Shown: in pieces, positions 7,898 through 60,900 of the stretch | Numbering within the stretch: the first letter of the stretch is position 1 | How the letters are laid out: each line of letters starts with the position of its first letter | NCBI RefSeq assembly: GCF_032854445.1 | Contig: NC_088306.1 | Location: 18,323,764-18,387,763, forward strand | Length of the DNA: 64,000 nucleotides | Source of the DNA: Liolophura sinensis | Taxonomy: Eukaryota > Mollusca > Polyplacophora > Chitonida > Chitonidae | Reading direction: 5' to 3' | Notes under the pieces: model-generated | What the model saw: only the letters and a program-made list of their open reading frames with translations | Told to the model about the DNA's origin: nothing | The model's database searches: none | Program-made: the position numbers and the translations under genes

Positions 7898-10800
7898 GTA
7901 AGGAAATGTCAACGCCTTCAGTGCTTCGTTGACATGAGTTGTTGTGCATTGACATGAGCTGTTGTGCGTTCCCATGGACTATGAGATTCCACTGCCTTCA
8001 GTATGAAGTTCACACTCCCATGGGTATTATAGACTTACACTGTACAACATAGAGAGCAAAACCAAAGCAGTGACCACAGTTCAAAAATTTGTCATATACT
8101 TGCCTTTGGCCAGGGGGTTTGATTGCTATCAGTTTTCCTGCCAGATTTCAATAGTAGCCATTTTGTTTCTTCCAAATGTAGGCCTAAGTATAAAGTGCCG
8201 TCAAACAGGAGACGCAAATAAAAAACTGCAAAACTTTATAACCAATGTAAGTGTCAAGATAACATGTATTTTTTATTCTGCAGTCCTTGCGAGATCAATT
8301 TTTGGTCCATGACTTCTACATATCCATTGCATTCAGGATTTCAAGGTTCATTAGTTCATGTTTTGATTCCTAATGTTGACTATCATTCTAAATTTAAAAC
8401 ACAGTAATTGAGCTAAAAATTCACCGCGCTAAGAGCTTTTATAAAAGCATTAGAAAAGTCATGAAATATTACTTTTGATCCTGTGACTTTCATTTTTCCA
8501 TGAAGATATCATCCTACCCTTCGAAAAGACTCAAAAACATAACTCTGAGGACAGTAAAACGCTTGGAGTCAGGCAAAATAAGTAAGTTTTAAATTAAATT
8601 TTTAAATAAATTTTACATCTAATATTATAATGTAATGAAACTTTCCATGTCGTCTTTTTGCTTTTGCAGGAAGATGCGGAATCATAGTACAGGAAATGCC
8701 TCATTGTCACCTACGAGGGAGTCTGATGATGATCTGCCACCCCCACCACCCCCGCCCCCAATCTGTGACGAGGACTTACCCGGCACACCTGTAGATTCAC
8801 CCTACCTGTCGTACCTGGGCCGCAGTGTGGCAAGTAACAAGACCCCTTCCAGTAACATGTCCACAAAGACGGAGGACTCTGAGGATGATCCTAAGCGCAA
8901 ACTTAAGGTACACATGACTTGATTCCAAATTTCCGTAAGAAATTCTGACCTAGAAGAACTAGAATTGAGCTCTAAACGGAAGTCTGTAATGTTAATAGAT
9001 GCATTTGAAGGACCCTATGCTTTTATTTATCTACCTCATGATGCGTTTGTTCTACTCGTGCGTAGCTATGCACCACTCGAAAGCACTATCTGGCTTATTG
9101 GACGCAGGCACAGTGTCCATGTCAAACAATTGCTGATTAATTGCTGATAGCAGATTGCATTGTATATTGTTCATACTTTAAAAGGGCTTGTATTTTGGTT
9201 GCAGAATGCAACTTTCACCACTGTAAGGGAATGATTGTCGTCTTAGTAGGTCTAGGCACCTTGTCACATCCCGAGTATTATCAGCTCAAAGCCAAAAAAA
9301 CAATTAACTTTACATTTACATACTGAGACTTAGTTTAATACAGTGTTGAATTTGTGAAAAGAGTGCAAATATAATGTGTTTTATAGATGACTCTTAAATC
9401 AGTACAGATGGTTTCAGTGGTTGCAAAAAATTAACTATTTATACCGTCAAATATTTTGTAAAGGCTCCCCTATTGGAAACTGTAATGGCATTTGTGGGGT
9501 GATCTTTTATAGATCCCGAGTTGTCCTCTATCATTACTGCTGTGAGTCTTCTGGTATTCCACTTACAATCTGTAGTTGGCTGCTCGCTCACAGCAGGAAC
9601 ACAGAGATTACTGCAAATTTAGATCTAAAAAAGTAAAAATGGAAGGCTGCTATTGGAGATCACTGCCAGCAATTGTCTGATTTTTTCTTCTATCACAAAC
9701 CAAAAATAGAATTGTTTTCATCTCTTTTAACCAGTTTTAAAACTGCATCAATTTCTAATTCTTTTTTTTTTCTTGTCAGAGCTCTTTTTTTTTCCCTCAT
9801 TTATTTCAGGCTTTGCAGTTTTTGTTACTGCTTTGATTTTGTTTTGTTTTGTTTTGTTTTTTCATTTTGAAGATGTTTTATTTTAAAATTGGTAAAGTTA
9901 ATGCTATGGATGGTCACAAAGCTGGAGATTATAAAACTTTTAACTTTTTCAGTAATGACCATTTACTGTTGTGTACAAAACCAGTGTTGCTAGGTCTTTA
10001 AATTTTGTCATGTTAGTGATTATGTGCAGTGCTTTCCTGCAGTATCTATTTGGGTTTCCTGCGGTACCTACTTGGGGTTCCTGCAGTATCTACTTGGGTT
10101 TCCTGCAGGATCTTCTTGGGTTTCCTGCAGTATCTACTTGATTTCCTGCAGGATCTTCTTGGGTTTCCTGCAGGATCTACTTAGGTTTCCTTCAGGATAA
10201 ATTTGGGTTTGTTCCAGGATCTACCTGGGTTTCCTCCATCAGTATATCTGTAGACTTCTTTTAGATGGCCTCTATGTGGAAAGATATGAAAGCAACCTGC
10301 GGATGATCATGGGTCTGTCCGCACCACTATGGTGGCCATCATTATATAAGTGAAAATATTCTTGAGAATGACCTAAAACACCGATCAGATAAATCAACGA
10401 ACTTCTGTTAGATGTGGACGCTTGTTGACAGAGTGGTTAAAAGTGTTTAACTTGAGACAGTGTTTTTCGTCCGATTCCAAGTTACACGGGATTAGCAAAA
10501 ATTCGTTACTGCAATAATTGTCACTGTCGTCAATGACAAAACACAAATGGAGGTAGAGTCGCATTGTTTATGATGCATGTCTTATTGTTGTCCTCCTTCA
10601 GCGCACACCAATGGACAGGTCGTATTTCATTGCCAAGGAATTGCTGATGACAGAGAGAACGTACAAAAAAGACATGGAGGTGCTAACAGTGGTATGTACT
10701 GATAAGTTTTAAACTTCATTTCTGATGTAACCCTGCCATATGTACGTGTGTTCTTCCCATTCTGTCGTTTTCGAGTAAGCTGGCCCTTAAGATAAAATAT

Positions 10801-16800: not shown

Positions 16801-19800
16801 CCAAAGTGGAAACATACAACCAAGATGGGATGTAAAACCAAGGTGGAATGTACAGCCAAGGTGCATTGTACAGCCAAGGTGCAATGAACAGCGAGTGCAA
16901 TGTACAGCCAAGGTGGAATGTACAACCAAGGTTGAATGTACAACCAGTGATATGTATAACCAAGGTGGTATATACAACCAATGCGGAATAATTTACATTT
17001 CCTCATGTAGCAGGCTTAAATGTGACTATAGAGACATTTACACCCATCATCCAGTCTCAAAGAAGCTTAGCTTCTCTGATCAAAGGTGTTGGCTGGGAAG
17101 GCTTGGTAAGAAAATTATATCATGAAAAATGCATGAGAACAAAAGTACTGGTTGGAGTAGGATCGTCCATCTCTCCCTGGGCTAAACCTGTAAACATTGA
17201 TCGCAATTTAGTGGAGGACCTAAAGAGAGGCTGCGGACTTGAAAGTTCAGACGTTATGTTGCGGAACGAGAGCTAAATAAGCTGCTGGACTATAAATAGT
17301 TGATTACTAAGATTATCTTGAGCGTGGCCTGGCCGTCAGATCCGTGTACCATTATTAAGTGTGTCAGAGTAAAGAGAAGTTATGACTGCATAGATGTAGG
17401 GGGTTAACACTAGTTGTGAACGACAGGGGAGTAACGGGGTGGGGGGCTACTACCAAACCACAGCCACTACTATCAGCCGTTTTACCCTACGGTACTTCAA
17501 CTACACATTGGACGTACAGAATTTAAAGTGCAACTGACACGGTTTTTAGGATACTGAAAATAAAAAAAATACATTATTGGATAAAATTAAGGTAACAATT
17601 AAGCATACATATTGTTTTTGCTTTAAATGAACTTTTAGTAATGGGTTTATTTTGTTAAAAGTTGACTTTTGCCACTCCACAAGCGATCGACTGATGGTGT
17701 TAGTCCTAGACATCCTGGGATCATAAAGTCATGTGGTCAGATTAAAAACATAAAACACTTGTAACTCACACATATATGAACTGAGACGAGCATTAAGGAA
17801 AAGTGTTACCACTTGCCATCCTGTTCCCTTTGGTTTCTTTGTTAAAACCTCAATATAGTCTGTCATTTGGGTGGCAAAGAGCTAAATGCCATTACAGTGA
17901 CGGAAATGTTAAGTACACCGAAAAAGTTTAAAAAACATTTTTAAAGGGATATAGAATCAATTTTGATTGATTGGTATAAGAGATTGGCTATGTGTAGGCT
18001 GTTAAGCAGAATTTTAGGTATAGCAGGGTTATTCAAGCATGACCCTGGCTGCATGGTTTAACCCAGAAAATCCTATCTCTGCTGTCAGTCAATCAGCTTT
18101 GATTCTGCATCCTCTTAAGGCCCCACTCTTTGTTGACATCAGCCTTAAAAAATGCTGTATAGATATTTTCATTTTCAAGCATATAATATTATTTTGGACA
18201 TAACAAAAACATAGACATGCTACAGTACTCATGGTTCCACAGCAGTTAAGGAGATTTTGTCATCTTAACTCCTGCCAAATATTACCGACTGTTTGTTTCT
18301 GTATGCAAATGTGTTTTTTCTTGTCTTCCCCTTGATTAGGAGGAGTTGGTCTTTTTTTATTGGGACATTATACTCTGTGAACAGTATATTCATTCGACTT
18401 TGTATTTTCACTTTACCCAGTATTTTGACTTGGCCCAGTGATTTCACTTTGGCCAGTATATATTCATGCCAGTGTTTCCACTCATTACAGTATTTTGACT
18501 TGGCCCAGTAATTTCACTATTGCCAGTATATTTTCGTGCCAGTGTTTCCACTTATTACAGTGTTTCCATTCATTACAGTGTTTCCATTCATTACAGTAAT
18601 TTCACTATGGCCAGTAATTTTTCGTGCCAGTGTTTCCACTCATTGCAGTATTTTCACTTGGGTCATTATTTGCACTCTGAGCTGTGTATTCATCATGTCC
18701 ATTATTTTCACTGAAAGTGTTTTCATTGATCCCCTTCATCCTTTTTTGAGATTGCGTCATACTAATGGGGCTATTGTCTAATGATAATTTCGTTTCTTTC
18801 AGCTGCTCTCGCCAAACTGATGGAAGTCACATCAGCCTTCAGTGAATCCATGCGAAAAGTGGTCAGTTAAGTTTTTTCTTGTATCTGTTAATAACACAGA
18901 TGTCTCAAATGAACCATATCTAGGCTCAGGGAACAACACAGCTACAGATTTGATCTTAACTCGTGGACTTTGCTCTTTATCTACGATTTGACCTAATTTC
19001 CATCATTTTCAAATTTTGGAAACATGGCTGCCGTACTTTCCCCAGGGAGAAATTATGGTATCTGAATAGAGTGACATGACAACTAGCGTTTGAATGTGTC
19101 GAAACTTTCATAAATTTAGCATTGTGTACTGTTTTGAAGTCATGACTAAGCCTGTGCTAACTGTACAAGTAAGTCAGCTTGGAGATCCCCTAATGCTTTT
19201 ACGTTTTTTATTTGAATTTCAAGTAGATGAAAGTAAAATGAACAAATCTAAGAGCGAAATGTTTTTCAGCAAGGTAACAAACATGTTTTTACCTGCAATC
19301 TTATATCTTTCAATATGCCTGTGGTATGGGAAATAACTCCTGTAAGTGAATGACTGTAGAAAGTTGTTTCCCTTGAATAATGGTGTTGTCAATGTTGCAA
19401 ATGCCTCAATGTTGCAAAAACACCCTCAATCTTTAAGAGGTCCTTTTTTTTAACTGGTTCAAGTGTGGCATTGTGACAAAAGAGGAGATTTTGAAGAGTA
19501 TAGGGAGTATAGATATACTGATATAAAGGAATATTTTACCCCTACATACTGTAATCCTTCAACCTTTTCGCATGTGTGCAAACTGTTACTTCAAGAACAT
19601 TTTGAAGACATTAATTCTTTGTAGACCCTAAAAAAAAATTTTTTTTTTTGTGAAACCCTGAAATTGGCCAGTCCAAACAATGTAGTTTTGTCTCCGAAAT
19701 CCAATTAAAAATATGCATAAATTGCACTAATAGTTGCCCTTTCATATGCGAAAAGGTTGAGGAAGTAGTATAGATGTGTTTTGCATCTGAAAGCTATCTT

Positions 19801-22800
19801 CGTAAAATAACATGTAAGGAAGATTAATACAGTGTAGGTATTTTGAACATGCTTACTTATTGCAGAGCATAATTTGTCTGGCAGGGATGTTTTCACATAT
19901 GTCAAATTTATTTTGTTCATTTTTTTCCCCCAGGATAATTTACAAAAATTGGTGGAGCTGCAGCGAGATTTGGTTGGCATTGATTCCATTGTTTCTATTG
20001 GCAGGGTAAGATATTTACTTGTGCTTAAACTTTTCCTTGGATTCTGATTTTCCATTACCTCGGAATCAGTTCAAAAACTTGAAAGTTTTGAATATGTCTG
20101 ACTGAAAGATGTTTCAATTCGTTTCAGGAGTTTCTGAGGGAAGGATGTTTACAAAAATTCTCTAAAAAAGGTTATCAACAGAGAATGTTTTTCTTGGTAA
20201 GTATCAACTGTAGAATTTAGTAAATCTCAACTACCCTAGTTTCGTGGACACCTGGTGTGCTGTTTTTTAACCAATAGAAATGAACCAGGCATTTCAGGTA
20301 CCAGTGTTGGTATTTGGTATTACAGACACTGTAATTTTTTAACCTTCTTGCATGTTTGCAAGGTATTTACTCAAGCATATTCTGACCCCATCAGTCTGTG
20401 TTGACGGATAAAATTATACTTTTGATAAAGCCCTCTAACTGTCTGATACAGGCATAGTTTTTACTCCAAAATCAAAGTAAAAATGTCCATAAATTGCACT
20501 GAAAGTTGCTCTTTCGTATGAGAAAAGGTTGAATTAACATAGTATGAACCATTATACTGTAAGTCTTCAGCCTCTAAAGCACTTTTTTCAGTGGAATTCC
20601 TGCATACAGTTATTCTGAAAATGGTGCTAAAAATGATTTGTTTGTGTCAGTAAAGATTGCGGCTTCGTAAAACTGTGTAAGTTATTTGTCTACACCCAGT
20701 TTCAAAATATGGGTTGCAGAGGCGGTTGAAAAAGTTGAAAAATTAGGGTATTTCAGTATCTTGATAACAAGAAATATAAATTGATATCATGGTTATTATG
20801 AACAGGTGTATTTCAGTTTGCATACCTCAACAAGTATATTTTGAGGTCATTGCAAGTCTCAATTTTATATGCATTATGTATATTTTGGTATCTTGACACA
20901 TCTCAGCAGGTATAGTTTATTGTTTTTACAAGTCTCAAAAAATATACTTTATATTTTCACAAGTTTCAACAGGTATATTTTGATGTGTTGGTATGTGTAT
21001 GTGTATTTTTTGGTGTTATTGTTAGTATCAACAGGTATATTTTGCTAGAAAATTTGAATTGACATCTGGCAGTAACACATAATTGTACCTGTATCTTAAC
21101 ATTTCATTCGATGTTCTTTAAGAAACTGTACAGATATGTATATTGGATCAGATATTGAGTTATCTTATCGCTCTGTGGTAGTTAAGTGTAGGTTTTAATT
21201 AACACATCGTGATAATGATCTTTGCAGCTTTTGAATGTTCGACAGGCTTCCTAAAACATGTTGCATTTTTCTCCGCAGTTCTCTGACATGCTAGTCTATA
21301 CAAGTCGGACGGCCACTCCTCTGCTACAGTTCAAAGTTCATGGCCAGCTCCCGCTAAGAGGCATGATTGTAAGTATGAATCTCTCCCTCATTATGACCGG
21401 CCTGGATAGCACAGTTGGTAGAGCGTCCACCTGTTGTTGGTGGATGAATCTGCCTACAAATCTGAAAATTTGTTGAGCACGACGTTAAATCCCAAGCAAG
21501 CACTCACACCAGTCGCGTTGTATGAAGTTTGGGAACTACTGATAGCCTGTGATGTATATAATACAGGGACGGACATGGTGTGATGCTGGATGTTAACCAG
21601 GTCAACACAGTGTCATGGTTTTCACTGAATAATTGCAAATTTCCGAGTGCAAAAAGGTTTCCCTACTGAGACTAGGGAAAGTATGTGCAAATTTGGGCAA
21701 CACCAATATTGTGAAAACTTTAGGAAACACATTCGTGACTGAGGCGTTTTGAAGCACAGGTTGTAATCAAGCTTGTTATAATGATAAAAAAGGTGTATCA
21801 GTACACTAAGGTTGTGGTAAATTTAGTACCTTTCAATTAGAAACCACACGACCATGCCCCTGCCCTTATGGAGAACCTATCTGTCACGACTTTGAAAAGT
21901 AGACTCTGGAAATTTGCAACCAACCTGCAGATGCACGTGGATTTTCTCCGGGCACCCGGTTTCATCCCACCATAATGCTGGCAGCTGTGTTATTTGTGAA
22001 ATATTCTTGAGTACGGAGTAAAACACCAGTCAAATAAATAAATAACTAGAATAAACAAATAACTAGAATAAATAACTAGAAAAGAAGTCATTTAATCTGT
22101 ACTTTAAATCTTTAGCCATGATATAGGCTTGTATTGGTTACATTTGTAACAGTGCGACCTGGAAATCAGTTCCTTCAATTCGTTTTTTTTTTTCCCTCAG
22201 GTGGACGAGACAGACAATTTCAAAATGGCTGTTGAAAATAGTTTTACAATTTATGGTGGGAACAGATGTTTACTTGTGGCTGCCAGGTAAGTTTGGCTAC
22301 AAGAATATAATCATCTTGATCAAGGATTAAACATTCTAGAAAAAAGCAAAGATAAAATGCATGCTTTGTGGCTTTTTACGCACCTGCAGAAATACAGTGT
22401 TAGACGTCCAGGTAAACAAACAAATTCAATTTTACATCTTCAGTTCCTTGAATATCTATGTTATATACTTTGATGTTTGTGCGAAACAAACAATTACATG
22501 GATTAGCTTCGTCTGAATATATTTCTTCCACAGGATCAATTTTTATTATTATTATTTTTTTAAATTATTATTATTATTTTTTATTATTATTATTTAGTAC
22601 CCCTGAGGAGAAGGATAAATGGATTGAAGATCTGAATGAGGCCGTTCAGATCGCCAAATCCAAGTCAGATGACAAGCTACAGTACGCCAGTCTCAAGTCC
22701 AGTGCCAGTAAGTACCATGGAAGACTATCTATGCGCAGTAAACATTTTTGTTTGGTAAGTTATATCTCTGAACATGCAAAACTGCACTTATTATTATGCA

Positions 22801-25800
22801 ATACAATAAGATAGATTGAATTTCTGACATTTTATTAGCTCGTTCTGGCCGGAGCAAGAGTTGACTCAAGAGTCCGGCTGAATTTGAATGAGTAATGGAT
22901 TCTATGTAGTTTTGAAGATTATTGTTAGAAAAGGTATCAAATAAACAAAAGATAATAGCAACAAAACCATTATCCTATTTACTTTTATTTCCGATCATTT
23001 TAAAGAAGCATAATTTTGCAGAAAGGGAAATTGAGAGCAAAAATAGAATAAAAAATTGAGAGTAAAACGTGTACTGTTTACAAGATTACCTCTGACCATG
23101 GAGTATAAATTAACTGATTCTGTCCATGATTTGATGTGTTGAGGAATAACTTGTTTTCGTTTGGGTTATCCTGGTCAAGGCTCGTCGGAGAATGTAGACG
23201 GGATAGACGGTCATGAGGAGAGCAACCACTCACCCTCCACACCGGAGAAGCAGATCCAGCATCGGGCCAACACCACTATGCATGTTTGCTGGCACCGCAA
23301 CACCAGCGTCAGCATGAGGGATCACGAACGCGCCATCAAGGTGAGGCACAGGTGCACTGGTCACCTGTGTGTGGAGTGTGGCAGGAGACAAATCTCAATG
23401 CGGACAGTTACAACGTTCATGTCAATCTGGGACGCTGTTGACTCATGTTACCATAAAGGAAGTAATCTGCAGTTGTCTCCACAACCAGTGAGGCCCTGTG
23501 GCCGAGGTGGATATTGTGCCAGCATGGTGCAATAACCAATAGGAGCCTCTCACCAACAAAGTTGCTGTGAGCTCAAGTCCAACTCATGCTGACTTCCTCT
23601 CTGGCAAATATAGGGGAAGCTTTGTCAGCAATCTGTAGACGGTTGGGGGTTTTCTCTGCTCAGTTTCCTCCCACACTGATGGTTTCATAAGTCAAATATT
23701 CCTGAGTACAGCATCAGATAAATACAATGGCAGATCTCCCCCCCACTATTCATCCAGTGGACTTCTCTCTTGTCGGTTGTATTGCTGAGCACCCAAGAAA
23801 GTGTAGTGCCAAGTATTCAGGTAATTGTGCATGTGTTTGCAAATTAACTGATAATGACACCAGACAGGACACTGTACTTGGATAACCAAGGGATTGCACT
23901 CCTCACAACCAGTTGGCCCTTAACCACTGTAGTCCTGTGTTTGAATTCACCTTGCTGTTACAGCCGTGGTTTTACGTCAGGTTTGTTATGCACCTGAGAA
24001 AAAATGCGGTTTGCTCTGGGCAGTTTGGTTTCCCCCGTTGATAAATTTGACTGCTGTGATGTGATATAAATGATAAATTCTTCAGTCTTGTATAGACACC
24101 GATCAAATAAATAATTAAATCGTTGCTAATTAAACTTATCAGCCAGCTATGGTGCATATATTAATCACAGATGTACGAATATTCAAATGTGCTCCTGTTT
24201 TTTTTTGTCATTTCAGAACCAGCTGAGTGGATACTTGTTAAGGAAGTTCAAAAATAGCAATGGCTGGCAGAAGCTCTGGGTTGTTTTTACGAATTTTTGT
24301 CTGTTCTTCTACAAAACATACCAGGTGAGTGGATGAACGATTGTTACCTACAGGAAACAGACATATTATTCATTGATTTTCAGTGTGCCAAAATGTGAAG
24401 TATATTTCTTTAGTGTGTAATGCTCCATTCAGACATATGTTTTGTGATTCATACATGTTAAAAGTAAATATTACTCCGAAGAAAAGCTTTTCAGTGTGAT
24501 TCTGCTTAAATTTTAAAGACATCTTAAATATTAAATTCCACGAATGGTCGTAGTTTTCCTCAGGCCTGTGCCTGGTTTCCCCCCACCATAATGCTGACCA
24601 CCGTCATATAAGTGAAATATCCTTGTGAGTGAGGGAGTGCTTGGGGTTTAACGTCGTACTCAACAATTAAATATCCTTGTGTACAGCGTAAAACTTCAAT
24701 CAAATAAATAAATAAATATTCAATGAGCGTATAGTTAACTTATTTAGTGGAGCTTTTGATGAAATGAAAGGAGTAAAACAAGGTCCTGTGGATAACTCTT
24801 TGATACGTAGACATTTGACATATGTCACAAGTCTGAGGAACAACAGGCACTGCATGAAGATGGTTTAATAGAACATTAATTTAGAATGTAATGTGCAATT
24901 CCTGATAATACGTAAAGTAAAGAATGTTTTTTAATTAAAATTCTTTATTGCTTTAAAATTGCCAAAAGTATAGTTACGATAATTGAGCCGTTTTAATTTT
25001 AGTACCTGAACAGTAGTCAAGGTGTGTTGTTGTTTTTTTTTTCTTGTAGGATGACTATCCATTGGCCAGTCTACCACTGCTGGGTTACGCCGTCAGCACG
25101 CCTGACGATGAAGATGGCATCCACAAAGACAACGTGTACAAGTTACAGTTTAAAAATCATGTCTATTTCTTCAGAGCCGATAGTCAGTACACCTTTGAGA
25201 GGTGAGGAAAGAAGAGCTGTTCAGACAGTCATCATGTATAGTGTTACTGGGTGGTGTGTAGTGTCTGGTGTCTTTGACATGACACTTCAGTGATGGCAGC
25301 ACCTTGGAGGCATGGACTCTTCCTGCCACAAGAATACACAGTATATGTACATGCACCTAATGACTCCTCATCGTCATATGACTGAAAAATTGTGAAGTAC
25401 GACGTTAAACCCCAAGCGTACGTACATACATACATACATACATACATACATACATACATAAAACTCCAGTCATAAATTGCAAGAGCTTAAAAAGTCAAAC
25501 TCAAAACAGGTCTCAAATTGTGGTTGTAACATTGTTCTTGGGTAAAGAATTGGTGTATAAATTTTATACTGTCCAGAGCAAAACATTTAAAGCAGTGTAT
25601 GAATTTTTAGCAAAAGTTTTGGAGATGTTTGATAAATCTGGGCCTGGAGCTTGTTTTTAACTCTGTAAAACCCTTATTCCTCAAATGTATAAATTTCTTA
25701 AAACACACCTCTGTCTGTAAATTAGGCATTGTGTATAGTCTGCAGAAATAGCCTTACCTGTTGTCTGTAAACTAGGCAATGTGTATGGTCTGCAGAAGTA

Positions 25801-26511
25801 GCCTTAGCTGTTTGTCTGTAAACTAGGCAATGTGTATAGTCTGCAGAAGTAGCTTTAGCTGTTGGTCTGTAAACTAGGCAATGTGTATGCTCTGCAGAAA
25901 TAGCCTTAGCTGTTGGTCTGTAAACTAGGCAATGTGTACGTTCTGCAGAAGTAGCCTTAGCTGTTTGTCTGTAAACCAGGCAATATGTATGGTCTGCAGA
26001 AGTAGCCTTAGCTGTTTGTCTGTAAACTAGGCAATGTGTATTGTCTGCAGAAGTAGCCTTACCTGTTGTCTGTAAACTAGGCAATGTGTATGCTCTGCAG
26101 AAGTAGCGTTAGCTGTTTGTCTGTAAACCAGCCAATGTGTATGCTCTGCAGAAATAGCCTATGCTGTTGGTCTGTAAACTAGGCAATGTGTATGGTCTGC
26201 AGAAGTAGCCTCAGCTGTTGGTCTGTAAACTAGGCAATCTGTATGGTCTGCAGAAGTAGCCTTAGCTGTTTGTCTGTAAACTAGGCAATGTGTATGGTCT
26301 GCAGAAGTAGCCTTAGCTGTTTGTCTGTAAACCAGGCAATGTGTATGGTCTGCAGAAGTAGTCTTACATGTAGCTGTTTATCAGTGCCGAAGTTTTAATT
26401 TTCAAATTCTTGTTACCTTGCAGGTGGGTAGAAGTGATCAACAGTGCTACGAGTAGTGCACGACGTTTACGATTGTTCAGTCGGCTAGAAAGTGAGCACC
26501 ATCAGGCGTGA
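7696..26511 (+). CDS. FARP1: FARP1/2-type FERM-RhoGEF-PH protein, 3' seventeen exons (partial gene)
   Basis: Rho-family guanine nucleotide exchange factor of the FARP family, which links membrane receptors such as semaphorin/plexin signalling to Rac, Cdc42 or Rho and the cortical actin cytoskeleton (family knowledge). Exons: 7696-7897, 8670-8907, 10602-10691, 12346-12479, 13493-13574, 14188-14374, 15756-15806, 18803-18861, 19934-20005, 20128-20196, 21279-21368, 22201-22286, 22598-22707, 23180-23340, 24217-24324, 25050-25201, 26424-26511. Phases agree across every junction, giving about 658 residues. In this fragment the linker is at about 1-146, DH at about 153-345, PH1 at about 371-487, the inter-PH linker to about 543, PH2 at about 545-641, then a short tail and TGA. 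Vertebrate FARP1 is about 1,045 aa, so the FERM and FA domains (~400 aa) lie upstream. PH2 wording (DDYPLASLPLLGY, GIHKDNVYKLQFK) resembles FARP1 more than FARP2. Confidence 0.95.
8670..8907 (+). CDS. FARP1: FARP exon: proline-rich, acidic linker
   Basis: Acceptor TTTTGCAG, donor GTACAC. It encodes a run of eight prolines between acidic stretches (ESDDDLPPPP...), then DSPYLSYLGR and TEDSEDDPKRK. The proline run could bind SH3 or EVH1 domains (inference). It ends in phase 0. Confidence 0.85.
10040..10250. repeat. Minisatellite, 22-bp unit, about 9 copies
   Basis: The unit reads approximately TATCTACTTGGGTTTCCTGC plus AG. Each copy ends in a TTTCCTGCAG-like motif that resembles a 3' splice site on the coding strand of FARP. 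It lies about 350 bp upstream of the real acceptor at 10,601. Confidence 0.9.
10291..10396 (+). mobile_element. V-SINE, 5'-truncated
   Basis: AGCAACCTGCGGATGATCAT, then GTGAAAATATTCTTGAGAAT and CACCGATCAGATAAATCAA. The core has a deletion relative to other copies. Confidence 0.7.
10602..10691 (+). CDS. FARP1: FARP exon: start of the DH (RhoGEF) domain
   Basis: Thirty codons in phase 0. The residues RTPMDRSYFIAKELL then TERTYKKDMEVLTV match conserved region 1 of FARP DH domains, the helix that contacts the GTPase switch. Acceptor CTCCTTCAG, donor GTATGT. Confidence 0.95.
11783..12230. repeat. Pyrimidine-rich 12-bp minisatellite (~450 bp)
   Basis: Variants of TCTGTCCATCCG and CCTGTCCCTCCG are repeated about 37 times. 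The plus strand is almost purely C/T/G with hardly any A, so open frames run through both strands. It lies in the FARP intron just before the exon at 12,346. Confidence 0.95.
12346..12479 (+). CDS. FARP1: FARP exon: DH domain
   Basis: It continues directly from ...EVLTV with HFRHAVTGDDLMPRYL, then LTEPIYEYHCNLLKDI, as in vertebrate FARP (WFRSAV...DPIYEFH). It ends two bases into a Trp codon, with donor GTGAGT. Confidence 0.95.
13038..13088 (+). repeat. Dispersed repeat D, diverged copy
   Basis: GAATGAATCAGTCAGAATGA, then GAAAACGTGTGAATTGAAAA. It is related to blocks at 30,730-30,791, 35,981-36,040 and 41,660-41,732. Confidence 0.45.
13493..13574 (+). CDS. FARP1: FARP exon: DH domain
   Basis: It completes Trp and encodes EGKSNAHLNGDCQRIGDILL and then KFTQNLE, matching the FARP WEG...HQRIGDILL segment. 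Acceptor TCTTTTCAG, donor GTATGT. Phase 0 at the end. Confidence 0.93.
13771..13926 (+). mobile_element. V-SINE, 5'-truncated
   Basis: CAGCCTGCGGATGGTCATGG, CCTCCCACCATAACGCTG, GTGAAATATTCTTGAGTATG and the tail AAACAAATAAATGA. The head is missing. Confidence 0.8.
14188..14374 (+). CDS. FARP1: FARP exon: DH conserved region 3
   Basis: It encodes MYRSYLYRQEEVITEL, then KVCYLPLNTFLLKPGQRLLH. The LLKPxQRLLxYxLLL block is the signature of the long DH helix that forms the exchange surface. Acceptor TTCTTGTAG, donor GTAAGT. Confidence 0.96.
14400..14531 (+). mobile_element. V-SINE, 5'-truncated, hit by a second SINE in its tail
   Basis: The core CAGTTTCCTCCCACCATAAT and GTGAAATATTCATGAATACA end in CATAAATAAATAAA. 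A second-family SINE begins at the next base, and the tail sequence is duplicated on its far side. Confidence 0.85.
14532..14897 (-). mobile_element. Second-family tRNA-derived SINE, full length, with 14-bp TSD
   Basis: Read on the minus strand it begins GACCGGCCCGGATAGCACAG with A-box-like AGCACAGTTGGTAGAGC, has a B-box-like GATCAATCC region, and ends GACGTTAAACCCCCAAGCAC plus (TCAC)n. It is flanked by CATAAATAAATAAA at 14,518-14,531 and 14,898-14,911, a target-site duplication that dates the insertion after the V-SINE it split. It has no LINE or V-SINE core. Confidence 0.88.
15161..15288 (+). mobile_element. V-SINE, 5'-truncated
   Basis: GTCGTGGGTTTCCCCCAGG, TCCATAATGCCGGCCACCAT, GTGAAATATTTTTGCGTACA and the tail CAGTGAAATAAA. 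The core has a small deletion. Confidence 0.75.
15756..15806 (+). CDS. FARP1: FARP exon: DH domain (51 nt)
   Basis: A small exon that completes Arg and encodes LVKHYQSDHVDVQDSR, parallel to the LC(K/G)HY segment of vertebrate FARP. Acceptor TTCTCAG, donor GTAAGG. Confidence 0.9.
15917..16178 (+). mobile_element. V-SINE, near full length
   Basis: A degraded head (GAGGTGGTTAACATACCAGT; B box GTGAGTTCAAGTCC), then CAGCTCATGCTGG, the V-like core CAGTTTCCTCCCACCATAAT and the tail AATCAAATAAATAAATAA. The order of head, core and tail is the reference for the truncated copies in this window. Confidence 0.88.
16370..16990. repeat. Minisatellite, 18-bp unit, about 34 copies
   Basis: The unit is GTACAACCAAGGTGGAAT with variants (CAACCAGTGGAATGTAC). 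The 18-bp period is six codons, so most copies keep frame and long open frames run on both strands (for example repeats of MYNQGG on plus and of HSTLV-like residues on minus). It lies in a FARP intron with no splice context or start, so it is not called as a gene. Confidence 0.93.
18405..18715. repeat. Degenerate tandem repeat (~17-bp motif)
   Basis: Variants of CAGTATTTTCACTTTGGC and CAGTGTTTCCACTCATTA alternate irregularly. It ends about 90 bp before the FARP acceptor at 18,802. Confidence 0.75.
18803..18861 (+). CDS. FARP1: FARP exon: end of the DH domain
   Basis: It encodes AALAKLMEVTSAFSESMRKV in phase 1 to phase 0. The donor is GTCAGT, weaker than its neighbours. The reading continues smoothly into DNLQKL in the next exon. 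Confidence 0.88.
19547..19770 (+). mobile_element. MITE-like element family A, copy 1
   Basis: It has inverted ends: TACTGTAATCCTTCAACC...TTTTCGCATG at the left and CATATGCGAAAAGGTTGAGG at the right. Internal blocks (TGTAGTTTTGTCTCC, GCATAAATTGCACT) are shared with the other five copies. There is no coding capacity. Confidence 0.85.
19934..20005 (+). CDS. FARP1: FARP exon: DH-PH1 junction
   Basis: Twenty-four codons: DNLQKLVELQRDLVGIDS then IVSIGR. LQKLxELQRDLVGI is nearly identical to vertebrate FARP1. Acceptor TCCCCCAG, donor GTAAGA. Confidence 0.95.
20128..20196 (+). CDS. FARP1: FARP exon: first strands of PH1
   Basis: It encodes EFLREGCLQKFSKKG and QQRMFFL, the first beta strands of the first PH domain. 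Acceptor TTTCAG, donor GTAAGT. Confidence 0.95.
20324..20546 (+). mobile_element. MITE-like element family A, copy 2
   Basis: A diverged copy: CACTGTAATTTTTTAACCTT at the left, GTATGAGAAAAGGTTGAAT at the right, with internal ATAAAATTATACTTTTGATA. A family B element follows within about 15 bp. Confidence 0.75.
20562..20750 (+). mobile_element. MITE-like element family B, copy 1
   Basis: It starts CTGTAAGTCTTCAGCCTC and ends GGTTGAAAAAGTTGAAAAAT. Internal blocks CAGTGGAATTCCTGCATA and GATTTGTTTGTGTCA recur at 41,949-42,176. The outer ends resemble those of family A, so the two may share a transposase. Confidence 0.6.
21279..21368 (+). CDS. FARP1: FARP exon: PH1
   Basis: Thirty codons with FSDMLVYTSRT and FKVHGQLPLRGMI, matching PH1 beta strands (FLF-SDMLLYTS...GxLPLxGM). 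A shortened tRNA-derived SINE begins only 27 bp past its donor. Confidence 0.95.
21396..21508 (+). mobile_element. Second-family SINE, internally deleted
   Basis: Head ACCGGCCTGGATAGCACAG and TTGGTAGAGCG join almost directly to the tail TTGAGCACGACGTTAAATCC and CAAGCACTCACAC; the middle of the element is gone. It starts 27 bp past a FARP donor. Confidence 0.8.
21916..22047 (+). mobile_element. V-SINE, 5'-truncated
   Basis: CAACCTGCAGATGCACGTGG, TCATCCCACCATAATGCTGG, GTGAAATATTCTTGAGTACG and the tail CAAATAAATAAATAA. Confidence 0.8.
22201..22286 (+). CDS. FARP1: FARP exon: PH1
   Basis: It encodes VDETDNFKMAVENSFTIYGG and NRCLLVAAS (the last Ser completed by the next exon). Acceptor TTTCCCTCAG, donor GTAAGT. 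Confidence 0.93.
22598..22707 (+). CDS. FARP1: FARP exon: C-terminal helix of PH1
   Basis: It encodes TPEEKDKWIEDLNEAVQIAK. The Trp in EKDKW is the invariant Trp of PH C-terminal helices. An ATT-repeat tract makes up the acceptor region. Confidence 0.94.
23180..23340 (+). CDS. FARP1: FARP exon: inter-PH linker
   Basis: After an acidic, serine-rich start it encodes HRANTTMHVCWHRNTSVSM, almost identical to vertebrate FARP1. The acceptor is an AAG preceded by a weak pyrimidine tract, so the 5' boundary is less certain than the phase fit suggests. Donor GTGAGG. Confidence 0.9.
23490..23726 (+). mobile_element. V-SINE, near full length, diverged
   Basis: The head GAGGCCCTGTGGCCGAGGTG, B-box-like GTGAGCTCAAGTCC, CAACTCATGCTG, core CAGTTTCCTCCCACACTGAT and a worn tail. 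Confidence 0.75.
23975..24118 (+). mobile_element. Old SINE tail, probably V-SINE
   Basis: GCTCTGGGCAGTTTGGTTTC with CACCGATCAAATAAATAA at the end resembles a decayed V-SINE core and tail. A B-box-like TTTGAATTCACC lies just upstream. Confidence 0.5.
24217..24324 (+). CDS. FARP1: FARP exon: first half of PH2
   Basis: Thirty-six codons: NQLSGYLLRKFKNSNGWQKL then WVVFTNFCLFFYKTYQ. This is the most strongly conserved FARP block in the window. Acceptor CATTTCAG, donor GTGAGT. Confidence 0.97.
24538..24718 (+). mobile_element. V-SINE, truncated, carrying a nested 41-bp SINE fragment
   Basis: CGAATGGTCGTAGTTTTCCT, CCCCCCACCATAATGCTGA, then the tail region is split at AAATATCCTTGTG, which is repeated on both sides of a 41-bp insert, before GTACAGCGTAAAAC and AATAAATAAATAAAT. 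Confidence 0.88.
24628..24668 (-). mobile_element. 5'-truncated second-family SINE (41 bp) nested in a V-SINE
   Basis: Only the 3' end of the second SINE family is present (minus-strand reading TTGAGTACGACGTTAAACC then CCAAGCACTCCCTCACT). It is flanked by perfect 13-bp duplications AAATATCCTTGTG at 24,615-24,627 and 24,669-24,681. Confidence 0.88.
25050..25201 (+). CDS. FARP1: FARP exon: second half of PH2
   Basis: It encodes DDYPLASLPLLGYAVSTP, GIHKDNVYKLQFKNHVYFF and DSQYTFE, all matching FARP1. Acceptor TTCTTGTAG, donor GTGAGG. A SINE tail with an ACAT repeat begins about 40 bp downstream. Confidence 0.97.
25244..25460 (+). mobile_element. SINE with second-family tail and ACAT repeat
   Basis: GTGTCTGGTGTCTTTGACAT, CCTCATCGTCATATGACTG and GTACGACGTTAAACCCCAAG lead into a (CATA)n tail to 25,460. 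It shares its body with the copy at 46,281-46,645. Confidence 0.8.
25717..26372. repeat. Minisatellite, 51-bp unit, about 12.5 copies
   Basis: The unit holds GTCTGTAAACTAGGCAATGT and CTGCAGAAGTAGCCTTAGC. Its 51-bp period is 17 codons, so a minus-strand frame stays open. It ends about 50 bp before the acceptor of the last FARP exon. Confidence 0.94.
26424..26511 (+). CDS. FARP1: FARP last coding exon
   Basis: It encodes RWVEVINSATSSARRL (the PH2 C-terminal helix with its invariant Trp), then RLFSRLESEHHQA and a TGA at 26,509-26,511. The C-terminal tail after PH2 is shorter than in vertebrate FARP1. Confidence 0.96.
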
Positions 26512-26744
26512 AGTTGCCATGGAAACATTCATTATAGAGTCATGTTATCTACCTGCGATAAGTCAAAGCAATAAGACACCTGTGTGGAGGAACGGAGCGA
26601 CAGGGGGACAGACAGATGTGATGGTGTGTTGAGTCCTGGATCCCTGTGTCCCAGCTTGGACCTGAACTGCACTTGTCCGTCTGTTTTTTTACAGGAAAAA
26701 ATTAATGTTTGTCTAATAGCGTATGCCAGGAAGTGATACTGTAC

Positions 26745-40281: not shown

Positions 40282-43200
40282 CTGAAAACGCAAAACTGAC
40301 TCAATAAATCCCAAAACTGTTCATTCTGTCCAGAGGACTCCTTTCACTTCTGTTTTTGATCTCTTTGTTCATTTGATTGTTGTTAAACGCTACATAGTGT
40401 ATTCATTTGCGCCTCTGTGGGGTATCATACACATTATCTGCTGTCCTGTTGAGCAAATATTGTACACATGGTTAGGTCGATCATGCATATGGGGTTGTGA
40501 TATGATGATATGGTGGAGATAGCAAGTGGACAATATGGGCGTCCATAGCTGTGTACACAGAAGTAATACATTACCTGCAAATTCTGAAGGCTATCACAGC
40601 TTCTAGGGCATGTAAACTCCAAGCTGCTATAAACCTGGAAAGAGAATAAAATGGAAAGAGAACAAAATTGCATGAGTGTACCAAATAGAAATAACAGGAC
40701 AATTTCTGGTGAGGACAATTTAGTTTCCTTGGGTGATCGCATTATGTTTTTGGTTTGAAGATGACTAACTTAACTCTTTAACCTTTTCGCATATGAAAGA
40801 GAAACTTTCAAAGCAATTTATCCACATTTATAAATTGATTTTGGAGACAAACTACATTGGCTGGATTGGTCATTTTCAAGCTTCACAAAAAGTATATTTT
40901 TATCAATCTGCACAGAATAATGCCTTTAGAATATGCGTGAATAAACACCTTGCAAACATGCGAATAGGTTGAAGAATTACTGTAATCAACATGAACGAAA
41001 AGGGCACTGCACTTCACGTTGACGTCCTGTGTACTCTGAGAAAATCCTAATCACCTTCACTGTCAATAATCTTCTACGTCCATGTGTCCTGACTGACTGA
41101 TTGATAGATTGACTGATTTGGGTTCAATGCTGAATATTTCACTTTTACATGTCACATGCAAGATTTCATCCTCAGCAGGAAAAAACAGTTAGGCAGGGGA
41201 ATTTTGAAAATTCCTTGCCTGCTTGAATGACTGAAAGACAAGCAACCTGATTGCTTGATATTTGGTTTACACTGAACATAAAAACTCTACGAGTACTGAA
41301 TTTCACCTAAAGTTCGGTACTGTAATTCTTCAACCTTTCCGCATGTATGCAAGGTGTTTATTCAATCATATTCTAAAACATTATTCTGTGCACTCTGATA
41401 AAATTATACTTTTTATGAATCTCCAAAAATGGTTAATCCAACCAATGCAGTTTTGTCTCCAAAATCTAATAATAGACGTGCATTTCTTGCGCTGAAAGTT
41501 GCTCTTTCATATGCGAAACAGTTGAGGAACCAGGGTATGTAAAAATGCCATTTTAGAAGAACAATAAGGTATTAAATCTACTTCTGATGCCAACCCTTAA
41601 TTTTTTCTGATAACAATTTATTCAAAATTATGCAAAGTTTACTAAAAACTGCAAGGAGGATGAATCAATCAGAATTGAGCAAAATGTGTCACCTGAAAAA
41701 TGTTAAACTTTTAGGTAAAAATACAGTAATTATTTTGTCATGAATCATTCATTTATGATTAATAAACAGTAAACTGTATTTTTTTATTTTCATTTCAAAA
41801 CATGAATATATACATTCTGCCCAAAAAATTCATACTGTGTTTGATCAGCATTGTCACAATCTAAGCAAGTTTACTTTGTAACAACTTTAAAATAATGACA
41901 TTTCAAGACCAATGTGTTGTACTCTTCTGTAGACAAGCATAAATTTGTGAATACTGCAAATTTTCAACTTTTCAACCACTAAAGCAATTTTTTTAGTGGA
42001 ATTTAGGCATATAATTATTATGAAAATGACGCAAAAAAAAAAAAATGATTTTGTTGTCATACGTGTGTCATCAAAGATGTTAACTTCACAAAAATGTGCA
42101 AATTATTTCTTTACACCTCATAGTTCTCTCAGGATGTTTTGAAACACTGGTTGCACCCGGCAGTTAAAACAGTGGATGAATCTGGGGATAAGACTTACAA
42201 ATAACTGATGCACTTTGGGTAGGTCACACCTACATATGTCCCAAACTGGCCCACTGGTCCTAAATACCTGGGAATGTATGTTGGAAAGAAACGTGACATC
42301 TGTAAATAAACAAGAAAAAAATCTCGTAACACAAAGATTATCTGCTGCATAATTCAATATTCATGATGCACACAAGTATGAGTACAGTGTCTTATATTCA
42401 GTTGCAATTCTACGGTCTGATCATTAATTATGATCTATAAGGTGCTTTAGTATACTGAACAAAAATATAAACCCAACCTTTTTGTTTTGGCAATATTTCA
42501 CAAGGTAATGCTGTGATTATTGTCAGCATAGTACTGAGGGGTGGCCAACAGCAAAACCCTGTATCAGCGTACATTCTAGTCTCCAAAACCAAAGTGTTGT
42601 CGATTTCAAGACTATTCACAATTTTAACACGTTTTGACAGGTATGGCCCTATCTGTTGTATTCAGTGATATCCGAAGTCTTCCCTGGCATGCCTTACCCT
42701 CAGGTGTACTAAAGTCACACGTACAGTACAACTTGTAAAAAGGCACAATGCCTAAAAAATCAACGAGAGCGTGCCATCATGCTCAATGTTGGAACGACCC
42801 TCAGAGCCAGAACCCTTAATGTTAATGTGTCAATGATTAGTCATCTCAGCAGACATAATGAAGCATTTGGCACGACAGCTAATCGCCCACATGCCCGCCG
42901 ACTGCGGGTAATGACCCCCGACAAAGACCACCACATTCGCCTCCTTCAGCTCCGCGACTGTTTCAGGCCAGTCACTGCCACAGCTTATGAAACAGTCGGA
43001 CTTTCCGCTGAATTTCCGCTCAAACGTTTCGGATTCGCCACAGAGAAGCAAATTTGTGAGCCTGTAGGCCACCCCAGGGTATACACCTTACCCCTGTGTG
43101 ACACCAGAGCCAGCACAACTTATCTTAACAGCCATGTTCGTTGGCCTTTGGCACGATGGCGGCGTGTTATGTTTTCAGATGAATCCTGTTTTCAGCTACA

Positions 43201-45181
43201 CAGAACCAATGAGAGGCAGCCAGTTTGGCTGTGATTTGGCAAGCGCTATGCCAATGCCACCGTTGTGTGTACGGGGCAATACGGTGATGATGGGGTACTT
43301 GGGTGGGTGGAGATAAGTCATGGCCATCGCACTCAACTTTCATTTCATCGACCGTAACTTGAATGCAATAAGATACTGTGATGAAATCCTGCACCCAATA
43401 GTCGTCCCATTTGTTTGGCACCATGGGGTGACATTTCAGCACGACAATGCCTGTCCCCATGTGGCTGCTGTTTGCAGAGCAATTCTACAGGCCGAAATCA
43501 CTGAAGTGCTCAACTGGCCAGGGTATCTGTCCCCAACTGAAGACCTGTGGAATATCCTTGACTGGCGTGTTTGTTGGTGACTTCCAATTCAGGGTAACAT
43601 CGTGGAGTTCCCCTCACGCTGGAGTGGGAAAACATTTTGCAAGTCGCAAATGACCATCTCATCAGGTCTATGTGTCGACAATGTGTAACAGTGCAACAGG
43701 CAAACAGCAGACATACTTGGTACTGAAGTGTTGAATTTCCCAAAATGACCCCACCCTGTTTCTCAAACTGACCCCACCCTTGTTTCCTAACTTAGCGTTA
43801 CCATCAGTCATACGTTTCCATCAGTTATGGAAATGCATTGCTACGAGTCCATTTTATGCCCCCCTAATAAACAGTATTGAAAGAAAATTGATAACGCAGT
43901 TAATTTTATCAAAATATTGGGTGTTGCGTTTATGTTTTTGTTCGGTACATTTTACTATATTACCCTACTTGATGCCTTTGTGCAAAAGCAGGTAATTTAT
44001 GCATATAACAGTTCTAATAACAGTACAATGTTGGCATCCAAAATCCTAATCACAAACCAAAGATAGCTGCTATGTGACATCTCTTAATTTGAGCAACACG
44101 AAATGAGGGTAATGTCTGAAAATGTATTTATTTGGTGAATTTGTGTGGTTGCCATGGATCATTTTTGGTTCGGTAAAATTCTGAACAAGTTAGTTGAATT
44201 TGGGGGCCACACGGTGTACATCGTGGCTAGGGAAGTTTTAATGCATGTGTGAAGACATGTTATATGTTCCTTACCATCATTCTGTATTCCACCATAACTC
44301 TACCAACACTTTGTGCTGCTAATTTAAGAGTTTTACACCACACCCCAACTAAACCCAAACACTACTTAAAAGTCTCAGTGAATTGAACTCTTTTCTTTGC
44401 AACAAATCTGGTAGCCATTTTATTCATTCATATTAAAATGTAGTTTTTAGGGTCATTTTCGATGCAAAATCTGACAGTAAATATCATACGTGGCAATTCA
44501 CAGTGTTTTCTGGATCAACTAGCGGGACTACATGTATGTGCCAGTGCTTTGACCAGGTGAAAATCAGATTTCTTGCGTTTCTCTGCGGAACGTTTATTAA
44601 AAAATGAGGATCACAAATCAATGGCATTTTAGTCTCAAGTATCTTGCTTTATTTTATTTACCCTTCCCCTACCTCAACAAGCTAAACTTCCACCCTCCTT
44701 TTTCTTTTTATTCTGACATTGGGGCCTCCGTGGTTCAGTTGGTTAGCGCGCTAGCACTGCATAATGTCCCAGAAGCCTCTCACCAATGCAGTCGCTGTGA
44801 GTTCAAGTCCAGCTCTTGCTGAAATATTCTTGAGTACGGCGTAAAACACCAATTAAATAAATAAATATTTCGACGTTTACCTGGTTAGCTGGCTCGTCTG
44901 ATTAAAACAAAAAAAGGCATCAACGTTCAAATCCCCACACCTTTGTTCCCAAAGAATACAATCACTAGAACTTCAATCTGAGGCTCTGATCAGGGCAAAT
45001 GCTACCAATTCTGTTGTAAGTAAAGAGTTAACCACGAAAACGAAAACTGAGCCCTAGATAATGATAATCCTTTATCGATGCAGCGCTACTATACCGTGAG
45101 CAACCACATCCCAAAGGAGATAGACACCACCCAGAATGGATGCGGGTAGCGGAAATACGCCTTGTCTTTCATTTCACTCAT
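40149..45181 (-). CDS. TMEM254: TMEM254 small multi-pass membrane protein (complete)
   Basis: Small membrane protein of the TMEM254 family; no biochemical role is established. Exons in gene order: 45181-45095, 42299-42199, 40634-40575, 40281-40149, joined in consistent phase to 126 residues plus TAA; human TMEM254 is 123 aa. The product starts MSEMKDKAYFRYPHPFWVVS, with a first hydrophobic helix (FWVVSISFGMWLLT). Then come FFPTYIPRYLGPVGQFGTYV (the family's P-x-x-IPY-x-LGPLG motif), a second helix (FIAAWSLHALEAVIAF) and a third (TVQTLLFGFASMIRLV) before a basic tail (KKIAFIPGSAKAK). The order hydrophobic-LGPxG-hydrophobic-LQTxxFGxAS matches the family throughout. The start has a good context (GCTACCATGA). 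Intron 1 holds a dead Tc1-like element and a SINE. The short exons make the gene easy to miss. Confidence 0.9.
40575..40634 (-). CDS. TMEM254: TMEM254 exon 3
   Basis: Sixty nucleotides with acceptor CTCTTTCCAG and donor GTAATG. It encodes FIAAWSLHALEAVIAFRIC, the second membrane helix, matching the family's AWLIHVGESLYAI segment. Confidence 0.88.
40771..40984 (-). mobile_element. MITE-like element family A, copy 3
   Basis: Inverted orientation: AACCTTTTCGCATATGAAAG at the left and GCGAATAGGTTGAAGAATTA then CTGTA at the right. It sits in a TMEM254 intron, opposite to copy 4 about 340 bp away. Confidence 0.85.
41319..41534 (+). mobile_element. MITE-like element family A, copy 4
   Basis: CTGTAATTCTTCAACCTTTC and CGCATGTATGCAAGGTG at the left, CATATGCGAAACAGTTGAGG at the right, with the shared TGCAGTTTTGTCTCC block. 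Confidence 0.85.
41660..41732 (+). repeat. Dispersed repeat D copy
   Basis: GGATGAATCAATCAGAATTG, AAAATGTGTCACCTGAAAAA, TGTTAAACTTTTAGG. Confidence 0.55.
41949..42176 (+). mobile_element. MITE-like element family B, copy 2
   Basis: It shares TAGTGGAATTTAGGCATA, ATTATTATGAAAATG and GATTTTGTTGTCATACG with the copy at 20,562-20,750. Its right part runs to within about 25 bp of TMEM254 exon 2. Confidence 0.55.
42199..42299 (-). CDS. TMEM254: TMEM254 exon 2
   Basis: Acceptor TTTATTTACAG, donor GTAAGT; 101 nt. It encodes SRFFPTYIPRYLGPVGQFG and then TYVGVTYPKCISY. An internal CAG at 42,273-42,275 gives a shorter but out-of-family alternative. Confidence 0.88.
42453..43948 (+). mobile_element. Tc1-like DNA transposon, defective
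   Basis: The left inverted repeat TACTGAACAAAAATATAAAC is matched at the right by the complement of GTTTATGTTTTTGTTCGGTA. The total of about 1.5 kb is normal for Tc1 elements. TA precedes the left end; the right flank is CA, a mutated TA. The body contains a broken transposase. It lies in intron 1 of TMEM254 in the opposite orientation. Confidence 0.9.
42779..43660 (+). pseudogene. Tc1-like transposase pseudogene
   Basis: Segments of a Tc1-family DDE transposase remain in different frames: a helix-turn-helix-like N-terminal part, then RRVMFSDESCFQLHR (first catalytic Asp), FHFIDRNLNAIRYCDEIL, VTFQHDNACPHVA (second Asp) and YLSPTEDLWNILD (the Glu). Frameshifts occur before 43,100, between 43,230 and 43,320, and after 43,560, and there are stops, so no full-length protein can be made. 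Confidence 0.88.
44721..44867 (+). mobile_element. V-SINE head joined directly to its tail (core deleted)
   Basis: An excellent head (GGGCCTCCGTGGTTCAGTTG, GTTAGCGCGCTAGC; B box GTGAGTTCAAGTCC, CAGCTCTTGCTG) passes straight into AAATATTCTTGAGTACGGCG and the tail AATTAAATAAATAAAT. The ~115-bp V-like core is missing. Confidence 0.85.
45095..45181 (-). CDS. TMEM254: TMEM254 exon 1
   Basis: Twenty-nine codons from ATG at 45,181 with donor GTATAG, ending in phase 0. It encodes the N-terminus and first membrane helix. Confidence 0.88.
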
Positions 45182-57960: not shown

Positions 57961-60900
57961 CTGGAAAAAGAAGTTGAAAAATGAAAATGAAAAATATCAA
58001 TAAATAAATCATTAGAATTTTAGAAAAAAAAATCTGTAGCTATCAAACCACAAGAAAAAATTTATGCAGAAACAGGTGGATTCACAGTGAAGCCAGAAAC
58101 AGGTGAATTCACAGTGAAGCCAGAAACAGGTGGATTAACAATGTAGCCAGAAAACAGGTGGATTAACAATGTAGCCAGAAACAGGTGGATTATCAATGTA
58201 GCCAGAAACAGGTGGATTATCAATGTAGCCAGAAACAGGTGAATTCACAGTGAAGCCAGAAAGATGTGGATTAACAATGTAGCCAGCGAACAGGTGGATT
58301 AACAATGTAGCCAGGAAACAGGTGGATTAACAATGTAGCCAGCGAACAGGTGGATTAACAATGTAGCCAGAAACAGGTGGATTATCAATGTAGCCAGAAA
58401 CAGGTGGATTATCAATGTAGCCAGAAACAGGTGAATTCACAGTGAAGCCAGAAACAGGTGGATTAACAATGTAGCCAGAAAACAGGTGGATTAACAATGT
58501 AGCCAGCGAACAGGTGGATTAACAATGTAGCCAGCGAACAGGTGGATTAACAATGTAGCCCGTGAACAGGTGGATTAACAATGTAGCCAGAAACAGGTGG
58601 ATTATCAATGTAGCCAGAAACAGGTGGATAACAATGTAGCCAGAAACAGGTGGATTAACAATGTAGCCAGAAAACAGGTGAATTAACAATGTAGCCAGAG
58701 AACAGGTGGATTATCAATGTAGCCAGAAAAAGATGGATTAACAATGTAGCCAGAAACAAATGAAAAACAAAATTTACATTCACAGAACACAATGCTAATC
58801 TATTTTTACACCTGTCTGAGATACATGCTGATTCCACAAAGCAGTTTTCTCTTTAGCCAAACTATAAAACTCAACTATAACCCAAACATCAGTGTTTCAG
58901 AATTCTAAACTGTGACAGGAATGTCTAAACTTATTGGGTACTCTGAATCTGGTTCAAACATAAATGCTTACATCTCATTTCAAAATCTGGCTTAACTCAA
59001 ATCAGCCATTGTAAAATCAGCCCTTTCTAATAATTACAATACCTGTACCTTTTCGAGCAGTGTGGACTTCTGCGAGCACTGGCTGTTATCTGTCTCATTT
59101 TGCTTTCCTTTACGGCCTCTCTTTCGCCTCTGACGTTTATGATTTCCTGCAGCTCTGTCTTGAGCATCTACGACATCATCGTCACTTCCAGGAGCTTTAT
59201 CTAAAAGTAGAATAAGGGAAACAAATCTATATTTATCTGGTGTTGAAATCCCTTGACTGAGGATCTAAAAGCTCGTCAACATGTCAGCACTACATGACTG
59301 ACTGATTGATCGATCAATTCACTTTTAACTCCATGATCGATCAGTTCACTATTAATGCCATGACTGATCAATTCATTATTAATGCCATGATCGATCGATT
59401 CACTATTAATGCCATGATCCATCATTTCACTTTTAATGCCATACTCAATACATTTATTTATTTCATTGGGTGTTTCATGCCGTACTCAAGAATATCACAC
59501 TAAACACCTGCACCCAGCCTTACAGTGGGAGAAAACTCCAGACCATGCGCAGGTTGTTGGAAGACCTTCCTATGTATGAGCAGAGAGGAGCAGACAGTAG
59601 ACAGGAAGCCAGCATGAGTTGGACTTAAACTTGGCTTGACCGCACAGGTGAGAGGCTCCTTAATCATTGGGCCGCGCTGGCATGCTAACCACTCCCTGGA
59701 ATGAGAATCTAGCAGCTTGTCCACACATCGACTTACCATTTTTTCTGGCAGTGTTACGAGTCCAGGCCTCTCACAAAATATATGACTGACTGACTGAATG
59801 ATTGGTTTTTAATGCAATAATAAAGTTTTTTTTACGCTTATATGATGGTAGTTGGATTTATATGTAAAATGAAGCAAACATCCACCCTGTACCCAATAAA
59901 ACTCTTTTTCTAAAGCTGGAGCCAAATCGGCTAGTGCTGGATTTGAACTCATGATTTCACTGGTCAACACCTGAAAGTCTGAACATAAACCATCAGAGCC
60001 AGCACACAATATAGTGTATGTAAATTTACATTTGCCTGTTAATGATGTCAAAGCTTGACATTTTCATCAAGTTCACACTTTAACCATCTGAGTCAGCACA
60101 CTATATAGTATGCATACAGTGTTTCCTTCATCTGTTGCTCGTGTTCTTCCTAATGTGGTGAAATATACCGTAAAAGATATCTTTGTGGTTGGCGTCCTTC
60201 CTCATGTGGTGTAATATACTGTAAAATACCTTTGTCTGTTGCTGGAGTCCTTCCAGATGTGACGTAATATATACTGTAAAGTTATCTTCATCTATTGCTT
60301 GTGTCCTTCCTGATGTGGTATACTGTAGAGTTACCTTCATCTGTTGCTTGTGTCCTTCTTCAAGGCACGTAATATAGTGTAAAGTTACCTTTGTCTGATG
60401 GTCGTGTCTTTCCTGATGTGGTGTAATATACTTTATAGTTCTATTAAGTTACCTTCGTCTGTTGCTTGTGTCCTTCCAAATGTGACGTAATATACTGTAG
60501 AGTTACCTTTGTCTGCTGCTGGCGTCCTTCCTGAGGTGCTGTCTTCTTCGTCATTTTCTGCATCGCTGCCGTATGAGCACATCAGACTGCCCAGACCACC
60601 AGCAGCTAAGGGGTTAGACTGGGTGCTGCTGATGGGTCTGTCTGCTCTCGTCACCTGTTCAGTTTTGTCTGCTTCCTCATCAGAGCCTGATGTGATCAAA
60701 ACCCATGTTAGCTTGATGTCATCAAAACTCATAATAGCTTCATAAAATGTGATCAAAGCTCTTCAGAGGCTGGCAAAATGTGATCAAGACCAATCTTAGC
60801 CTGATAAAATGTGATCAAAGCTCATTACAGCTTGACACAATTTATGATCAAAGATCTTGAGAGCCTGACAAAATATATGATCAAAATGCAAGTTAGCCCG

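Follow-up and report, generated by a model that had tools for sequence, protein, structure and literature searches.

Tandem repeats that span exon–intron boundaries, at 5′ as well as 3′ splice sites, have been described in amphioxus as 'mirages'; RT-PCR suggests that splicing is undisturbed, and the repeats have been put forward as a source from which introns may arise (PMC3087553). Another report describes lancelet Adh, troponin C, and PGBD5 in much the same terms (PMC3902484), and repeats at the boundaries of human duplicated genes may cause novel introns, some of them by cryptic splice sites (PMC2812944). In this study, we identified arrays of this kind at an exon of a NUFIP1 gene, designated e4, in a 64-kb window, which is the whole stretch of DNA that was analysed. 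A repeat unit crosses the exon–intron boundary at both 60507 and 60686 (frame-inferred boundaries). The e4 arrays are a real structure of a known kind, in which both ends of one exon are affected. The coordinates are given in Table 1.

Table 1. Exon e4 of the NUFIP1 gene and its flanking repeats (positions in the window).
Feature	Position	Strand	Details
NUFIP1 exon e4	60507..60686	-	180 nt, phase 1-1 (symmetric); frame-inferred
e4 splice sites	acceptor AG 60687-60688, donor GT 60505-60506	-	frame-inferred, not from RNA
Donor-side array	60104..60542	-	8 copies, ~54-bp unit; TRF, repeat search, junction test
Possible e4 extension	60453..60506	-	54 nt, 18 codons, in frame, stop-free, to second AAG/GTAACT (translation)
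Distal donor copies	60229..60452	-	60388, 60334 (GTAACT), 60229 (GTATTT); use would hit array stop
Acceptor-side array	60684..60886	-	~7 copies, ~31-bp unit; TRF, repeat search, reading, junction test
Possible e4 upstream extension	60687..60737	-	51 nt, 17 codons, in frame, stop-free, from AAG acceptor copy

The amphioxus mirages (in Adh3, the globins BflGb6 and BflGb9, troponin C, and PGBD5) resemble the present arrays in that minisatellite-like copies span the boundary and many of them keep the AG or GT. Here, separate and unrelated arrays lie at both boundaries of one exon, the host gene is NUFIP1, and the host is probably not a lancelet. In PGBD5, too, both kinds of splice site carry repeats, of 60 and 108 bp, possibly on one exon. 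The units of about 54 and 31 bp found here compare with 10–72 bp in Adh3 and 150–160 bp in the globins. Human internal tandem repeats are recent, variable, and located in segmental duplications, whereas the donor-side array here looks old (PMC2812944). Among the literature matches listed (titles and abstract openings), none concerned a boundary-spanning array in NUFIP1 or in a mollusc. A minisatellite in an interferon-induced transcript, presumably that of human 6-16/IFI6, was reportedly found in 1995 to supply donor sites; there too, repeat units carry donor sites beside an exon, and the extra donors described here are candidates for such use.

The NUFIP1 gene lies on the minus strand at the window end. 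Six inferred exons lie within the window; together they form a single reading frame that stays open for 290 codons up to the stop, and e4 is in frame with both of its neighbours. At the C-terminus the product resembles the NUFIP1 chain 5l85_B (E 8.5e-9), and the Pfam NUFIP1 model gives a partial match that is cut by the window edge and falls below the cut-off of the model (E 0.047). The end of the next exon, e5 (about 59048-59037, minus strand), has two possible donors six bases apart, GTACAG and then GTATTG, the second of which would add two codons in frame.

Each donor-side unit begins with about 33 nt that match the end of e4, followed by the donor and some 21 nt of intron. TRF delimits the array at 60131-60542 (period 54, 7.6 copies, 71% matches), and a repeat search finds 8 copies of a 40-nt core at spacings of 51, 53, 56, 49, 54, 64, and 54, in agreement with a sequence-only reading that had seen the exon end plus donor repeated about seven times past e4. 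The interval given there, 60128..60506, covers the intronic part of the array; the repeat itself reaches about 33 nt into e4, to about 60540. When a 50-nt exon/donor query was aligned to the downstream flank, the match (score 69) spanned the junction and was equalled in 0 of 1000 shuffles. Chance is excluded as the source of the junction-spanning copies on this side. A profile built from the eight copies recovers them at E 4.2e-17 to 8.2e-11, a partly circular result, and it finds no further convincing copy of the unit anywhere in the 64 kb (next best hit, E 3.5).

GTAACT stands at 60506 (the donor of e4 itself), 60452, 60388, and 60334, and GTATTT at 60229, while the remaining copies read ATAACT, ATATCT, and GAAACA, all as read from the sequence beforehand. 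The nine bases AAG/GTAACT are identical in 4 of the 8 copies and GT is kept in 5 of 8, the copy of e4 being counted both times, so the duplicates partly retain splice signals. The four copies nearest e4 all keep the donor 9-mer, and the four distal ones are changed. All nine donor columns are invariant over these four copies, which 47 of 10000 column shuffles equal, a biased figure as the copies were chosen for GTAACT; nine invariant columns in a row, at whatever position, turn up in 1074 of 10000. Translation bears out the earlier statement that the first extra donor, 54 bases downstream without an intervening stop, would add 18 residues in frame and that reading on to the next donor meets a stop. 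Among the extra donor copies tested, only 60453 is productive. Extension to 60389, 60335, 60286, 60230, or 60126 runs into one common stop at index 84, which is codon 85 when the opening codon of e4 is taken as the first. Alternative e4 ends arising from the array are possible on this evidence.

Identity among seven aligned donor-side copies is 57–81% (47 nt, ungapped), compared with 81–100% in BflGb6. The e4 copy is 66–81% identical to the six other aligned copies (closest to the third copy, 81%, with the fifth at 79%), and a 96-nt stretch across copies one and two is 83% identical to copies three and four. The copy near 60177, which has an indel and is out of register, was left out of the identity and codon-position counts (7 of 8 copies used). 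Non-consensus cells number 8, 9, and 10 of 70 at the three codon positions, and no coding constraint is seen by codon position in these seven copies. An RNA fold masking the distal donors also finds no support, with a z score of 0.30 and 63 of 100 shuffles folding as well. Given copies of such low identity, with no bias by codon position and an ordinary RNA fold, we take neutral decay as the default, and the array as such is most likely under no selection. The divergence of the donor-side copies, as read in one haplotype, suggests little recent turnover. The retention of the donor 9-mer in all four nearest copies may speak against neutral decay, with the bias in the choice of copies noted above.

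The sequence-only reading did not include the second array, which lies at the e4 acceptor. Its unit is TTTGATCACATTTTATCAG/GCTCTGATGAG-like, in the register TTTGATCACATTTTATCAG/GCT...ATGAG-like, and its last copy comprises the real e4 acceptor and the first ~11 nt of e4. TRF calls cover 60684-60740, 60716-60874, and 60798-60885, and the junction test at the e4 acceptor (60686) gives a junction-spanning match reached in 0 of 1000 shuffles. AG is present at the register position in all six upstream copies. When these six were translated with the normal donor, only 60737 was open and the other five met stops. Homology between the donor-side and acceptor-side arrays was considered and rejected, as shuffled sequences match their score in 136 of 500 cases when the exon bases are included and in 146 of 500 without them. 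The middle of e4 was likewise rejected as a further diverged repeat (213 and 485 of 500 shuffles).

Splice-site strength was scored with a small weight matrix built from the few, inferred sites of this window alone; 1 of 20 donors and 1 of 23 acceptors were dropped for misplaced coordinates, and the U12-looking NCBP2 donor was excluded deliberately. On this matrix, the e4 donor ranks 15th–16th of 19 and the e4 acceptor 21st of 22, ahead only of the U12-looking acceptor, and among the six acceptor copies upstream, four score higher than that of e4 itself. As judged from these scores, e4 may be weakly defined. Because its sites rank low and some acceptor copies score better, e4 could well be alternatively spliced. 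Since the donor 9-mer is identical in four places, the sequence gives no reason to favour 60507.

To place the arrays in context, 44 inferred exon boundaries were tested, 15 from NUFIP1 and an NCBP2-like gene and 29 from a FARP-like gene, by aligning the 50-nt junction to the adjoining 500 nt of intron with 1000 shuffles. Matches to solved structures support the NCBP2 exons and the majority of the FARP-like ones, and the first three FARP-like exons (7696-10691, six boundaries) come from a reading of the sequence. Junction-spanning matches at ≤1/1000 shuffles occur only at the two ends of e4. An earlier scan of 43 boundaries with 300 shuffles, in which two coordinates were 1–2 bases off, had picked out these same two junctions. 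A donor near 22706, included in the 44, was judged misplaced, and the likelier donor at 22754 is not significant (127/1000). At the FARP-like acceptor 22598, the flank match exceeds all 1000 shuffles and lies within an intronic ATT repeat only, not across the junction; this acceptor is formed directly by the ATT-rich repeat (TTATTATTATTTAG) at 22540-22597 on the plus strand.

The window contains 27 arrays with a period of at least 10, which cover 12.2% of its length. By coverage, 5.4 of the 44 boundaries would be expected inside arrays. Of 3000 random 50-mers, 261 equal or exceed the score of the weaker e4 boundary and 204 that of the stronger one, which predicts 3.8 and 3.0 of 44, respectively. 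With two seen against these expectations, the arrays need not be drawn to boundaries in any special way, and a special tendency of arrays toward exon boundaries is unsupported. The chance that both arrays fall on one exon is about 2% (21 of 946 pairs) if placements are independent, which is suggestive at most.

Several other features were observed in the window. The NCBP2-like gene (49706 to 48535, minus strand) matches the solved structure 1h2t_Z at E 3.4e-57. One of its introns looks U12-type, with the donor GTATCCTTTT and, shortly before an AAG acceptor, the motif CCTTAAC, which we take to be a U12-type signal. The FARP1/2-like RhoGEF-PH-PH gene (7696-26513, plus strand) has several intronic minisatellites, one of which (25712-26371) ends about 50 nt before the last exon. 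SINE-like copies at 62440-62170 and 57310-57040 (minus strand) start with a tRNA-like head and have a GTACGGCGTAAAACACCAATC-like tail, after which come A/T-rich repeats; they presumably resemble molluscan SINEs, and searches for the tail gave no match. An open frame at 42713-43234 (plus strand) looks to us like the remains of a Tc1/mariner-type transposase. Neither Rfam families at the gathering score nor tRNA genes were found in the window.

We propose that e4 carries an old pair of boundary-spanning minisatellites of the mirage kind, one at each end and mostly idle, a reading to which we assign a probability of roughly 0.62. Short tandem duplications, by slippage or unequal exchange, would have happened to take in the exon boundary, and the exonic context would hold splicing mainly on 60507. 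The donor at 60453 would then yield no more than a minor isoform, lengthened by 18 residues, and the more distal donors, if used, early-stop transcripts that are probably degraded. The sequence-only reading had likewise supposed a minisatellite born from an exon–intron boundary. The unit is indeed the boundary and the e4 copy is a full member of the array; birth from the exon and capture from the intron both fit these facts. Under the reverse polarity, which we regard as possible though doubtful, an intronic minisatellite happened to include a donor, its first copy became the site of splicing, and the last ~11 codons of e4 (STSGRTPAADK) are captured repeat. The array edge about 33 nt inside e4, just past the acidic SYGSDAENDEED stretch, is in keeping with capture, as are the exon-like parts without codon-position bias and the density of minisatellites in the window; the sole direct counterpoint is that e4 is in frame on both sides with symmetric phase, which capture need not give.

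The array could also be a live donor cluster in which equal donors compete, 60453 giving a productive isoform longer by 18 residues and the distal donors decay-prone transcripts, so that array length tunes NUFIP1 output. The four identical 9-mers, all in the copies nearest e4 (with the same bias of choice), the single productive extra donor copy, and the weak e4 acceptor would suit such a cluster, which we nevertheless consider unlikely: GTAACT is lost in 4 of 8 copies and GT in 3 of 8, as plain decay would give, and amphioxus mirages reportedly leave splicing undisturbed (PMC3087553, PMC3902484). We would be surprised if the wider proposal proved correct, namely that e4, weakly defined and with duplicate acceptors and donors on either side, has several alternative spliced ends and that array copy number sets the balance between an isoform longer by 18 (or 17) residues and unproductive transcripts. 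A former coding repeat of 18-residue units, partly intronized once an internal GT served as donor, is very improbable. Its appeal is that the 54-nt length of the TRF unit is divisible by three and that the first extra copy is open in frame; against this, only 2 of 7 spacings equal 54 and 4 of 7 are not divisible by three, there is no third-position excess, and an open 54-mer is by our estimate not rare by chance. That copies of a dispersed repeat family lie here by chance is hardly credible even in so repeat-rich a window, the unit profile having found no other convincing copy within these 64 kb and the e4 end itself being a member of the array.

Judging from the sequence, 60507 is most likely the main donor, with 60453 minor or unused and the rest harmless, and the spare splice sites of both arrays probably do little. 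Boundary-spanning minisatellites have been proposed as raw material for new introns (PMC3087553), and should the host prove to be some other animal, the NUFIP1 arrays would be mirages outside the lancelets. With four identical donors in a row and both ends of e4 affected, the locus is a natural experiment in how the spliceosome chooses among equal sites.
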